A DNA stretch of 64,000 nucleotides from Pocillopora verrucosa (Eukaryota; Cnidaria; Anthozoa; Scleractinia; Pocilloporidae), in NCBI RefSeq assembly GCF_036669915.1, contig NC_089321.1, positions 2,198,316 through 2,262,315 of the forward strand, written 5' to 3'. Positions 9,470-62,286 of the stretch are shown one piece after another. Every line of letters starts with the position of its first letter. The first letter of the stretch is position 1. The position numbers and the translations under genes are program-made. A model generated the notes under the pieces. It searched no databases, had not been told where the DNA came from, and saw only the letters and a list, made by a program, of their open reading frames with translations.

Positions 9470-9845
9470 AAGATTATTTTTGAGACAGATGTTTTTCGTC
9501 TTCTCATTAGCGTAGGACAAAGAAAATATTCTGAGTCCTTACGAGGAATCAAATCTCAGGCCGTCAGATTCCGCGCTTCGATGCCCTACTACTGAGCCAA
9601 AGAGACTCTACGGTGTGCGAAGTCCATCACGGAGTTCATATGACAAGCCTCCTGCATACTACTAGGATCAGCAATGTCGATAGCATCATAGAATTGGAGA
9701 GGTGGTAAAGAATTAGAGAAAGATGTCTTTCATCTTGTCATGAGCGTGGGTCGTAAAGGAATCGAACCCCAGACCTTCTGATTCCGCGCTCCGATGCTCT
9801 ACCACTCAGCCGCTTTTTACCGAGCTTAAAAACTTACCATCTCTC
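9470..9845 (-). mobile_element. Dimeric tRNA-derived SINE (minus strand)
   Basis: Read on the minus strand there are two tRNA-like heads, about 9815-9740 and 9610-9540. Each has an A-box-like GGCTCAGTRGTAGRGC and a B-box-like GGTTCGATTCC. Each is followed by a tail with CTTTGTCC, CTCATGACAAGA and ACATCTTTCTC-type motifs. A linker containing TGCTGATCCTAGTA joins the two. The same arrangement occurs at 49357-49670. Confidence 0.75.
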
Positions 9846-21539: not shown

Positions 21540-21760
21540 TAATTCTTAGAGAAAGATTTTTTCGGCTTGTCACGAGCGTGGGACAAAGAAAAAATTCTGA
21601 GTACCTATGAGGAATCGAACCACAGACCTTCAGATTCCGCGCTCCGATGCTGTACCACTGAGCCACAGAGACTCTACGGTGAGCGAGGTCTATTACGAAG
21701 TTCGTATGACATGCGTCCTGCATACTGCTAGGATCAACAATGTCGATAGCGTCATGTTTG
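21540..21760 (-). mobile_element. tRNA-derived SINE (minus strand)
   Basis: On the minus strand the tRNA-like head GGCTCAGTGGTACAGCATCG (about 21668 downward) includes a B-box-like GGTTCGATTCC. It is followed by CTCAGAATTTTTTC, TTTGTCCCACGCTC and GACAAGCC. The upstream linker has GTTGATCCTAGCAGTATGC. Same family as 9470-9845 and 49357-49670. Confidence 0.75.
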
Positions 21761-21904
21761 TATATAGAATAAGAGTGATAGTAAGTTTTGAGCCCGGTAA
21801 AGATATAGATACATCTGCACATGGACGGTCGGCAAGCCAACTCGTGTAAGTGTGTTTATATCTCAGTGGAGTGAAGGTTGTGATCATGTTATGAGTATCT
21901 AAGT

Positions 21905-46642: not shown

Positions 46643-49600
46643 TCAGTATTTCTCACAATCAGCAGAGCTGTACTGGGTGCAAATGGAGTCACTGGTTTCT
46701 TCTGAGTATTTTGGCATTTTGTCAAGTCCAGCTCCTATAAAAATAGTGAAAAGCAAAGGCATAATTTGGCCAATTCAATAAACATTATATAAAATAATGT
46801 GATATAACCATAAAGATAATAAGGTATACTGATTAGATCAATTAGTACTGTAATAACCTAGGGGAAGACAAAATGAACAGTAGAAAGAAGAAATAGCAGA
46901 AGGATATAGATTAAGAACAATTTAGATCATCTTTTCTTTGCCAAAATGTAGGGTTGGTTACCAATGAAACACTAACTTTGTTACAGGTAACAGGCAGATT
47001 AATTACCTTACACATTAAAAAAGCTAAATTGTTTGTATGTTAAAAGGACAAACCTTGAAATAAGTAAAAGAAATAACATGATTTTGGGTGCAATTTGGTG
47101 TTAACCCTTCAACTCCTGTGAGTGACCAAGACAGAATTTCTCCTTACAATATTAATAAAACATCAAGCAGAAAAGTGATGAGAATAAAATATCAGTTAGG
47201 GGATTAAAAGTTGATCCAATACCAAATTCTCCAAACTTACATCACAAGAACTGAATGGCAGACAGTAAGGGGAATCACTAATTAGATCTCAGGAGTTAAA
47301 GGGTTAATAAGTACAAGTGAACTTTTCAAAGACAACAATATTGCATGAGCACTTGTTAATAAGGTACATGAAAAAACATCACAGAAAGTCGAGATGATGA
47401 AATTTTGAAAGCATGTGTGCATTCCTTTTCAGCCAATCAGAAAGGCATAATTTTTCATGTACATTATTACCAGGGGAAATTTTCACACAAATAGTATCAA
47501 ATGAGATAATACTATGTAAAAAACCAAAGCAATACTGGATTACTAATGACACTCAACAGGAAATTGCTCTGTGTATACTACTCAGTTTGACAGTCTCATA
47601 CCAGTGATCAAGTTGTGAAGGTTACAGTAGTTTGTACCATAGTCCAACACAGCATACCAAGTTTCAGAGGTGGAATAGCCCTGAAAGAAGGCGTAAAAAA
47701 GATGTGCAAAGTAAAAATCTCATGTGTTGATCAATTTGAAGCTTCAACATCCACACCCCCCCTCTCCCTAGGCATTTTAACTTATGAAGACTGTTTTGTT
47801 CAAATTCCCAACTTGATAATTCCATTCCACTTTCCCACCTCTGCTGTGCAGGGACAACCGTCAAATGCCAAGGGGTTGCCCAATGGGGATGGGGATGTTG
47901 AAGCTCCAAATTGATTGGGGCACAAGTATTGGAACATTCATTTTATATATCCCGTGTCTGTAGATGGTGAATACACATTACATAAGACAAGGCTTAGCAG
48001 GTCTATGGTTTTATATTTCATCTATTAACACCGATTATGACTACAGTGTACTTCGATGTCTTACTTAGCCTAAAGTTCAGAAACCTGCCATCAGATCACC
48101 TCACAAGAGTAAGAAAGTTGTGCACAAGAAGCCACATCACTACCAGAGAATTTATTTCACATCACTCTCTTTCAGAAATGTTGCTTTTTAAGAATGGTAA
48201 CCTTACTGAATGTTTACTAAGTGATTTAATTTATATCATGAACCTGTAAAGATATCGAAAAATGATTGGTGCACATCTAAGAACTGTGGTCAACCACAAT
48301 CAAAGCATCAAAAATGTTTCCATCAACCCATCAATATTGACCCACTAAATGCCAAAGAGAAGCAAAGATGGAAGATTCTCTCTGCATGTTATACTCAAGC
48401 CAGCATCTTTCTTTCCTATATTTCCATTAGTTTCCTAAATGAGGGAACAACACTTTTATCAGGGGTGAGGTTTTAACAATAAATTTGTTTTAGGCCATGG
48501 CCCCCTTGACTTTTTGTAGGTAAGAGGGAAATATGAATTAAGGAAACTATCTTTATAGCCAGAGAGGTGATTGGATGTCTTCTAAATATACTTGCATTTT
48601 GTTTTATTAGCCTGGAGAATCTCATACCTCTACACTGCACAGTTCAGTTCCATTTGCAGTAAAAGTAAATGTGAGGTCATCTTTGTAGTGCTTCTTGGGC
48701 GTCTCATGGATTGCTTTGATTTCAGTATCAGTCTGACTTTCTAGCTAAAGAAGTAATGATCAAAAACCAAAAATATAAATAGAATTAGAACATGGCATAT
48801 AGTAGAAATAGTCAAGGCTTTACCTTCAACTGAAAATATTCCCATCTTGATTTAAGAAAACAACTGTTGTGGCCAGAGAAAATTTACTGAGTTGGCTACA
48901 TCACAACAACCCTACACAGTAACAAGGCAGATAAATTTGAAAATCTCAATATTCTCTAACGACCCGACATTTATTTTGATCTATGGGAGGAGGTTTTATG
49001 AAACAATGGTTGGGCTTCTACGTAAACATACCGTATAAAGACACTTTTCCCCTTTACCATCTGGGCAGGTTTCATTTGAATGCCACTTCTGAATCTGGTT
49101 AACAATGGCATCATTAACCATACTGCATTTTACTGCCCAAGACCTGAAAGATATGTATCAAGTAACTTATTTCAAAGCTGACACAAAAACGGTTTTTTTT
49201 TAACCAGCAATACCTTGAACCTGCTGGCAAATATGGTAAGAATACATCTGCAAGACAGACCTGGCTATTTTGAAAAAAAAATATAACCTGCTCTTACAAG
49301 TATGATGAGTATAACCTATAACAAGTATAACCCGCTCACACAAGTGTAACTTTTCATTTTTCTTTGTCCCACACTCATGACAAGACAAAAAACATCTTTC
49401 TATAATTCTTTACCAAGCTGAAAACTTACCATCTCTGTAATTTCTATCTACAAACATTACATTGCTGACATTGCCGATCCTAGCAATATGCAGGACGCAT
49501 GTCATATGAACTTCATAATAGACCTTGCTCACCACAGAGTCTTTGAGGCTCAGTGGTAGAGCATCAGAGCATGGAATCCAAAGGTCTGAGGTTCAATTCC

Positions 49601-50340
49601 TCATGAGGACTCAGAATTTTTTCTTTTCCCACACTCATGACAAGACGAAAACACATCTTTCTTTATTACACAATAGAGCTCCCATGGTTAAAACCAAAAT
49701 GCACAGATTACACACAGCTACTGATTTGGTTGTCCTCCCCTTTTTTTTTCAATTTACTAACTTGCCCTTGATTTGATTAAAGGAAAGCCATGTGACTTGA
49801 AGGGTAGTAACCTGGCAGCTTATCTTTCCAATAGCAAGCAATATGGGAAATGACAGCCTTCGCAGAAGACATGTAACTTTGGCACTTTGGAAGACAACTT
49901 CGGAAAAGTTTGGTGACTCCTTTGAATGTAACAATGGTAGGAGGTGCCATACTTCAACTTTTTATTTTTAATGAAGAATGAGAAATGTAGGTTTTCTGCT
50001 GTCTAATTCTCCTCTAAATTTTTTAGTTCCTGACTGCATTGGAAGACCTACGAATCGTGCAGATATTATATGTTTATAGATTTGGGGTAGATCACTCGGA
50101 AGTTTGAAGATATACATATTTATTAATTAAAATGGAGAGATGAAAACTACTTTTAAGATTAACATTTTGTATTATTCAACCAGTTTCGAGTGAGCTATGC
50201 GTGATCTGATATTCATGAACGCAGGTATCTTACGTAATCACATTCCCTTACCAATTTATTTTGCAAGACGCATGTAGAGGCCCTAAGCTGCCTACTGCAT
50301 GGAAGACAACCATGAACATCAGTGAGAGAGTTAATTTCAT
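46643..50340 (-). CDS. Secreted eight-cysteine protein of an unnamed family, 5 exons
   Basis: Minus-strand exons found by reading splice sites: 50340-50252, 49143-49032, 48744-48628, 47680-47602, 46734-46643. All phases agree and the 162-aa frame ends at TGA (46645-46643). Residues 1 to about 20 form a signal peptide (MKLTLSLMFMVVFHAVGSLG). The mature part has eight cysteines and three N-glycosylation sequons (NWS, NET, NGT). Conserved-looking segments are HYKDDLTFTFTANGTELC, STSETWYAVLDYGTNYCN and SDSICTQYSSADCEKY. From memory, this combination resembles small uncharacterised secreted proteins common in cnidarians; I know no function. No membrane helix follows the signal peptide, so it is probably extracellular. 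The longest exon is only 117 nt, so simple ORF scanning misses it. It starts 196 bp from divergent NMT and ends convergent with calaxin. Confidence 0.85.
47101..47307. repeat. TTAACCC-type element copy
   Basis: TTAACCCTTCAACTCCTGTG at the left and AGGAGTTAAAGGGTTAA at the right, in the last intron of the secreted-protein gene. Confidence 0.85.
47740..47935. repeat. Dispersed repeat related to 4790-4930
   Basis: TTGATCAATTTGAAGCTTCA lies just upstream, followed by a C-rich block, GTTCAAATTCCC, GTCAAATGCC and GGGGATGTTGAAGCTCCAAA. The same blocks occur at 57130-57250. In the intron between exons 3 and 4 of the secreted-protein gene, next to exon 4. Confidence 0.5.
49357..49670 (+). mobile_element. 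Dimeric tRNA-derived SINE (plus strand)
   Basis: A first unit is represented only by its tail (TTTGTCCCACACTCATGACA, then AACATCTTTCT). A linker with TGCCGATCCTAGCAATATGC follows. Then comes a tRNA-like head, GGCTCAGTGGTAGAGCATCA with B-box-like GGTTCAATTCC, and a second tail (CCCACACTCATGACAAGACG). In intron 1 of the secreted-protein gene. Confidence 0.75.
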
Positions 50341-50536
50341 CTTAAAGCACGTGGAAGGATATCTGCAAAGCAATCAGTTCAACACTGATAAAAGTTGTGA
50401 AGTTATCTTGTAGACGTCATGTGACATTGAGCTGTGTCAATCATCGACAATAATACTCGAGCATGACTGAGCATGATGGGAAGGTAACCCTCGAGTAGAG
50501 ACTGGGTCAGACACATGTGCACCATTCCTCTTCAAG
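50341..50536. promoter_or_regulatory. Compact bidirectional promoter region (secreted protein / NMT)
   Basis: Only 196 bp separate the start codons of two divergent genes, so promoters and 5'UTRs must share this space. ACGTCATGTGAC (50414-50425) resembles a CRE/E-box-type site; no TATA box is evident. Function inferred from gene order. Confidence 0.5.

Positions 50537-62286
<11,750 letters not shown>

Follow-up and report, generated by a model that had tools for sequence, protein, structure and literature searches.

Does the stretch between positions 46643 and 50340 of a 64,000-nucleotide piece of Pocillopora verrucosa DNA (contig NC_089321.1; this whole piece is hereafter the window) hold a protein-coding gene on its minus strand, and what could its product do? 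A preliminary description, drawn from the letters of the window, had joined five small exons there into a gene for a secreted eight-cysteine protein. These five exons proved to be real: they form a 489-nt frame encoding 162 amino acids, with eight cysteines and three N-glycosylation sequons (N29, N53, and N98), the four introns are all GT...AG, and the exon phases join. A near-identical sequence, already deposited as an unnamed product, is a 162-residue protein of Pocillopora meandrina (E-value 5.7e-106), 98% identical over 100% of the length (3 of 162 residues differ). Moreover, in a search of the coral's own 353-Mb genome, in which the best candidates were scored, the five reported matches all fell at this single locus, exon by exon. 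Because the P. meandrina match is full length and all reported own-genome matches lie at one place, these comparisons indicate that the hidden five-exon gene is real. The shortness of the exons might point to a pseudogene or to exons joined by chance, but we regard this as practically negligible, given that the 98% match is full length, that the matched database protein is equally long, and that animal-wide conservation spans all four junctions.

Gene Structure and Protein Layout

The first exon (50252..50340, minus strand, as are all five; 89 nt) carries the start codon, a hydrophobic signal-type start, a conserved HASC block, and the first cysteine (Cys26), and ends at a GT donor. The signal-type start was read from the sequence as a hydrophobic N-terminus and corresponds to a helix at residues 3–16 of the predicted model; the block, HAxC in general form, and Cys26 are conserved in the animal family described below. 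Exon 2 (49032..49143; 112 nt) encodes helix 1 and a cysteine-rich insertion found in animals (Cys36, Cys56, and Cys64), and exon 3 (48628..48744; 117 nt) encodes strands b2 to b4, a pair of aspartates (D89 and D90) resembling that of the bacterial family DUF1499, and Cys103. Exon 4 (47602..47680; 79 nt) contributes the S-x-S ... D-x-G-x-N core (S109, S111, D119, and N123), Cys125, and the start of helix 2; exon 5 (46643..46734; 92 nt including the stop codon) contributes an animal-specific C-terminal tail with Cys151 and Cys159.

An Animal-Wide Eight-Cysteine Family

We searched for relatives with three queries (the coral, an elephant-shark, and a salamander protein), taking taxa and identities from the best 120 rows listed for each. 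With the coral query, 289 of 299 candidates had E-values of 10 or below, and the taxa comprised corals, other cnidarians, molluscs, an annelid, a brachiopod, a rotifer, nemerteans, a bryozoan, echinoderms, hemichordates, amphioxus, sponges, Trichoplax, crustaceans, and a springtail; the two vertebrate queries added sharks, rays, ray-finned fishes, the coelacanth, and frogs. Apart from the congener, the 120 listed relatives are 48–70% identical to the coral protein. Conservation in related corals, on which the preliminary description had staked its gene, is evident in proteins of Desmophyllum, Montipora, Acropora, and Oculina, which are 64–70% identical over 96–100% of the query. Judged from these sequences, the eight-cysteine family is animal-wide, from sponges to amphibians. 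No named amniote occurred among the 120 best rows of the elephant-shark or the salamander query, some rows being nameless, and within these rows a loss of the family in amniotes is likely.

A protist origin was considered because two of the transcripts (P0057 and P0071) come from data sets of protists. In a tree of 51 of the 201 proteins collected, they nest within animals, beside anemones and abalone; a protist origin was thus rejected, and contamination by host or prey is the likely source. Four vertebrate members (P0129, P0131, P0133, and P0154) are automatically annotated as "C-type lectin domain-containing protein"; P0129, the one of the four that was scanned, matched no Pfam family at an E-value of 0.05 or below. 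A search of six proteins against NCBIfam returned one row, below the cut-off.

We then aligned 100 of the 120 relatives that the coral-query search listed and counted conserved positions. Seven of the cysteines are present in all 100 and the eighth in 99, and the mature part contains exactly eight cysteines in 99 of 100. A larger alignment, comprising 193 of the 201 proteins (eight partial or fused rows were left out), has each of the eight cysteines in 191 to 193 rows. Its core residues are conserved to a similar degree for S109 (192 rows), S111 (189), D119 (193), and N123 (191), and D89 and D90 occur in 176 and 167 rows, respectively; H23 and H80 are nearly invariant. The two sequence blocks singled out in the preliminary description as signatures contain many of these invariant columns, and its view of a gene concealed as open reading frames, whose product is a small cysteine-rich protein of an uncharacterized and strongly constrained family, holds. 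The weight it gave to N-glycosylation does not: sequons are scattered, none of their columns being shared by more than 18 of the 100 members, and N29 is a histidine in P. meandrina.

Probable Relation to Bacterial DUF1499

The Pfam model of DUF1499 (PF07386) is matched by 85 of the 100 relatives at an E-value of 10 or below (best 9.3e-06); two relatives, P0056 and P0186, carry a precomputed PF07386 annotation. We compared the animal family with two bacterial sets. The first consisted of genes picked by a sequence motif together with a DD filter, giving 66 nonredundant domains; five of the five pieces tested match PF07386 well above the cut-off. Because DD and D-x-G-V-N were demanded in this selection, their invariance in these 66 domains is meaningless. 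The second set was drawn from a scan with the Pfam model of 150 and 79 bacterial genomes, of which 73 and 31 matched, and comprised 58 loci taken from the best-scoring rows (41 nonredundant domains); 19 of the 58 domains fit the motif. Alignment of the 66 motif-picked domains with the 100 animal domains by hhalign scored 90.1% (E-value 1.6e-6), against at most 1.0% in 30 column shuffles and 0.2% for the reversed alignment, and the 41 Pfam-picked domains scored 90.4% (E-value 1.4e-6), against at most 1.5% in 30 shuffles. In addition, a profile built from the motif-picked bacteria recovered 107 of 202 sequences of the animal set at E-values below 0.01 and none of 1005 shuffled ones.

The residues brought together by these alignments are those of the animal core: the profile match pairs bacterial D78-D79, S98-x-S100, D106, and N110 with D89-D90, S109-x-S111, D119, and N123. 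In the 41 Pfam-picked domains, both aspartates of the pair are present in all 41, the serines of S-x-S in 41 and 38, the following aspartate in 41, the glycine in 39, and the asparagine in 41. Both families also share the predicted order of secondary structure elements, with DD opening strand 4, S-x-S closing strand 5, and D-x-G-x-N preceding helix 2, and many bacterial members look exported, 36 of 98 having a lipobox-like pattern within residues 1–60 (a loose pattern, counted without a control). The animal proteins differ in adding eight cysteines, the insertion after helix 1, and the C-terminal tail, and in having two additional residues between S-x-S and D.

Several results tell against this kinship. 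The coral protein itself scores 15.9 bits with the Pfam model, below the gathering cut-off of 22.6, and 7.9 bits (E-value 0.037) with the bacterial profile; the hhalign matches span just 54–72 columns; and an arginine and a glycine after S-x-S and an arginine after the asparagine, each present in 41 of 41 Pfam-picked domains, are absent in animals. Because of these missing residues, the animal family is, as far as profiles can tell, likely a distant homolog of DUF1499 and not a member of it. A scan of the coral genome with the Pfam model gave no match, which the short exons may explain, and a scan of genome contigs with two peptide patterns, both derived from the aligned animal proteins, hit 20 stretches, none of them a close prokaryotic relative, although divergent relatives would escape such patterns. 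Nor did the neighborhoods of 119 bacterial loci give a clear functional hint: the widest clusters of neighbors cover seven loci each, one being entirely from Vibrio and the other composed of AMP-binding enzymes from different groups (counted without a chance control). These AMP-binding genes, of the acyl-CoA-synthetase type, lie within about 3.5 kb of DUF1499 at seven of the 119 loci (L008, L009, L015, L021, L064, L079, and L104), six of them on the same strand, and might, at best, faintly suggest acyl or lipid metabolism, no chance control having been applied.

Predicted Fold

The model of the coral protein (predicted local distance difference test score, pLDDT, 88.3) is built mainly of five strands and two helices in the order b-a-b-b-b-b-a. 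The same order of elements was obtained for a bacterial DUF1499 protein (pLDDT 94.7; predicted template modeling score 0.89), and the structural neighbors of both models are similar, among them AMPK/KA1, BamC, and AHA1-type (START-like) domains. Like the predicted coral protein, lipocalins are small, secreted, and disulfide-bonded. A lipocalin-like fold, raised in the preliminary description, was dropped because the model lacks the eight-stranded antiparallel barrel and has the neighbors just named. Among solved structures, a sequence search with the single protein gave three rows at chance level (best E-value 0.58), and one with the family profile gave none; a viral structure library yielded one match below 0.001, an uncharacterized phage protein (E-value 2.4e-04; template modeling score 0.38–0.43).

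The arrangement of strands and helices in KA1 domains, the N-terminal domain of BamC, and AHA1/START-like domains resembles that of the coral protein without a detectable sequence relation to its family, and to our knowledge none of them has such an eight-cysteine frame. This likeness invites the idea that the protein carries a lipid or another hydrophobic ligand, in the manner of START/Bet v 1-like proteins, or binds phospholipids in the manner of KA1. We consider such a function unlikely: a shared fold proves no function, no solved chain matched by sequence at an E-value of 0.5 or below, and the conserved site is polar. An enzyme is a still more improbable product, and we give it little credence. 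Its candidate catalytic residues would be H23, H80, D119, S109, and S111, all almost invariant in animals, and the fold matches include some whole or partial enzymes (norcoclaurine synthase, polyketide cyclases, and spermine synthase); on the other side, neither bacterial set has a histidine among its invariant or 90% columns.

Anchored Members, Sorting Motifs, and Pigment Cells

Where the protein works was approached through its relatives. Among 186 proteins with the HAxC block (of 192, six being left out), the hydrophobic stretch is preceded by a long N-terminal tail in 45, although some of these gene starts are doubtful. A Yxx-phi or [DE]xxxL[LI] motif is present in 27 of the 45 tails of this looser set, against 12.0 ± 2.6 in shuffled tails, none of 2000 shuffles reaching 27. 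When a strong anchor was required (34 tails) and redundancy was reduced to below 65% identity (24 tails), 19 of the 24 anchored tails had a motif, against 6.7 ± 2.0 expected, and none of 5000 shuffles reached 19. Acidic di-leucine motifs occur in four tails, from Trichoplax, Daphnia, Artemia, and one nameless source. Many members would thus appear, from their N-termini, to be type II membrane-anchored proteins with Yxx-phi or acidic di-leucine tails. The named cnidarian members in the alignment have a short signal-type start without a long tail.

The second lead comes from fish, in which the pigments of iridophores and xanthophores sit in lysosome-related organelles. Two zebrafish genes belong to the animal family by sequence, LOC100535932 and wu:fc46h12, the latter assigned through a Megalobrama protein of that name used in place of the zebrafish sequence. 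In our tree, LOC100535932 falls into the main vertebrate group, the slower-evolving one. Excerpts of one report (PMC3706446) list it among iridophore-enriched genes, with a value of 221.28 in iridophores, compared with 4.64 in the retinal pigmented epithelium, 0.98 in melanocytes, and 0.18 in embryos taken whole. According to excerpts of another (PMC6594659), wu:fc46h12 is expressed like the xanthophore marker gch2 at 24 hours post fertilization and is reduced in sox10 mutants, its homozygous mutants are viable, and maternal-zygotic mutants develop heart edema; in the parts available of two further sources, the gene figures in a reagent list (PMC6588384) and an expression table (PMC5752677). 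Pigment-cell expression is a feature reported for the fish genes only, not for the coral gene. The cyprinoid paralogs of the wu:fc46h12 type (P0190, P0191, and P0183) are placed on a branch with a length of 0.71, and P0190 and P0191 lack the core asparagine and the first aspartate.

In the literature we found, no function has been assigned to the family; DUF1499 appears there in table entries, in the parts of these sources available, and PF07386 in a listing, and the peptide string GTNYCN was not mentioned in the literature searched.

Proposed Role

Taking these lines together, we propose, with belief and doubt evenly balanced, that the coral gene encodes a secreted or lumenal eight-cysteine protein, a likely distant homolog of DUF1499, that acts by binding and not by catalysis, either in the endolysosomal or in the outer-cell space. 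Its predicted domain of about 110 residues, b-a-b-b-b-b-a, would have, after helix 1 and ahead of strand 2, the cysteine-rich insertion seen in animals only, and the cysteine-bearing C-terminal tail is predicted to clamp the fold, through disulfide pairings that are putative. D89 and D90 start strand 4, S109 and S111 end strand 5, and D119 and N123 lie in the turn before helix 2, so that these six residues probably form one polar site, which may bind a cation or a ligand. The sorting tails of anchored members and the iridophore enrichment in zebrafish indicate that the usual workplace is probably lumenal, inside endosomes, lysosomes, or lysosome-related organelles, as seen from the relatives and not from the coral protein; the coral form, having no anchor, would travel there in soluble form or be released.

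Some observations speak against parts of this proposal. The two leads on location stem from different members, neither of which is the coral protein: the latter has neither an anchor nor a sorting motif, just a short signal-type start, and no sorting motif was found in LOC100535932. The gene wu:fc46h12 is a fast-evolving, long-branch paralog. The motifs themselves serve endosomal and lysosomal sorting or plain endocytosis. At 48 hours post fertilization, wu:fc46h12 is expressed in the ventral crest, heart, and dorsal aorta, as described in excerpts of PMC6594659. In the coral model, the block of residues 111–120, which holds the W114–D119 stretch, is among the less certain parts (pLDDT 77).

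Part of this evidence would also suit an ordinary extracellular protein of mucus, matrix, hemolymph, or innate defense; its anchored forms would then sit at the cell surface and simply be taken up by endocytosis. This alternative is possible, though not probable. The short start of the named cnidarian members and the eight conserved cysteines agree with it, and Yxx-phi is generally known to drive endocytosis as well; yet the slow divergence of the family would be unusual, from general knowledge, for proteins of defense or mucus, and acidic di-leucine motifs in four tails together with the pigment-cell enrichment better suit organelles. The endolysosomal proposal can also be extended, in a form that we hold to be rather doubtful, to an overlooked, animal-wide lineage of the DUF1499 fold with four disulfides. 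This lineage would belong to the core of the lumen of lysosome-related organelles, among them the compartments with guanine crystals in the iridophores of fish, and in corals to that of lysosome- or symbiosome-type compartments, and it would have been lost in amniotes.

Intron Repeats and a Divergent Neighbor

Intron 1 contains, on the plus strand, a tRNA-like element (49539..49611; Rfam RF00005, 37.6 bits) at which ARAGORN reported no tRNA. It belongs to a dispersed repeat that recurs in similar form at 21547–21809 and 9483–9750 of the window, and is likely a tRNA-derived short interspersed nuclear element. A repeat of about 210 bp lies in intron 4, at about 47101–47308, and seven more similar stretches longer than 100 bp, 68–81% identical, occur in the window.

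The gene has a head-to-head neighbor on the plus strand (50477–50920 and 61589–61954), whose first reading frame (50477–50920) has no Pfam match and whose later exon (61589–61954) matches NMT_C (E-value 2.5e-20); the neighbor is likely, by this match, an N-myristoyltransferase. Since the start codon of the eight-cysteine gene and the first ATG of the neighbor are only 196 bp apart (50341..50536), a shared promoter is suggested.

Significance

A family that keeps about 48–70% identity to the coral protein across the listed animals probably does something basic. The link to DUF1499 gives the animal and bacterial families a common site to probe, and the zebrafish wu:fc46h12 mutant, together with the pigment-cell expression, offers an immediate experimental entry. 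A lone hidden gene in a coral thus leads to a family found across animals, which probably has a cousin in bacteria and whose cell-biological setting can be tested; should the organelle reading be true, the family would represent a new lumenal component of lysosome-related organelles.
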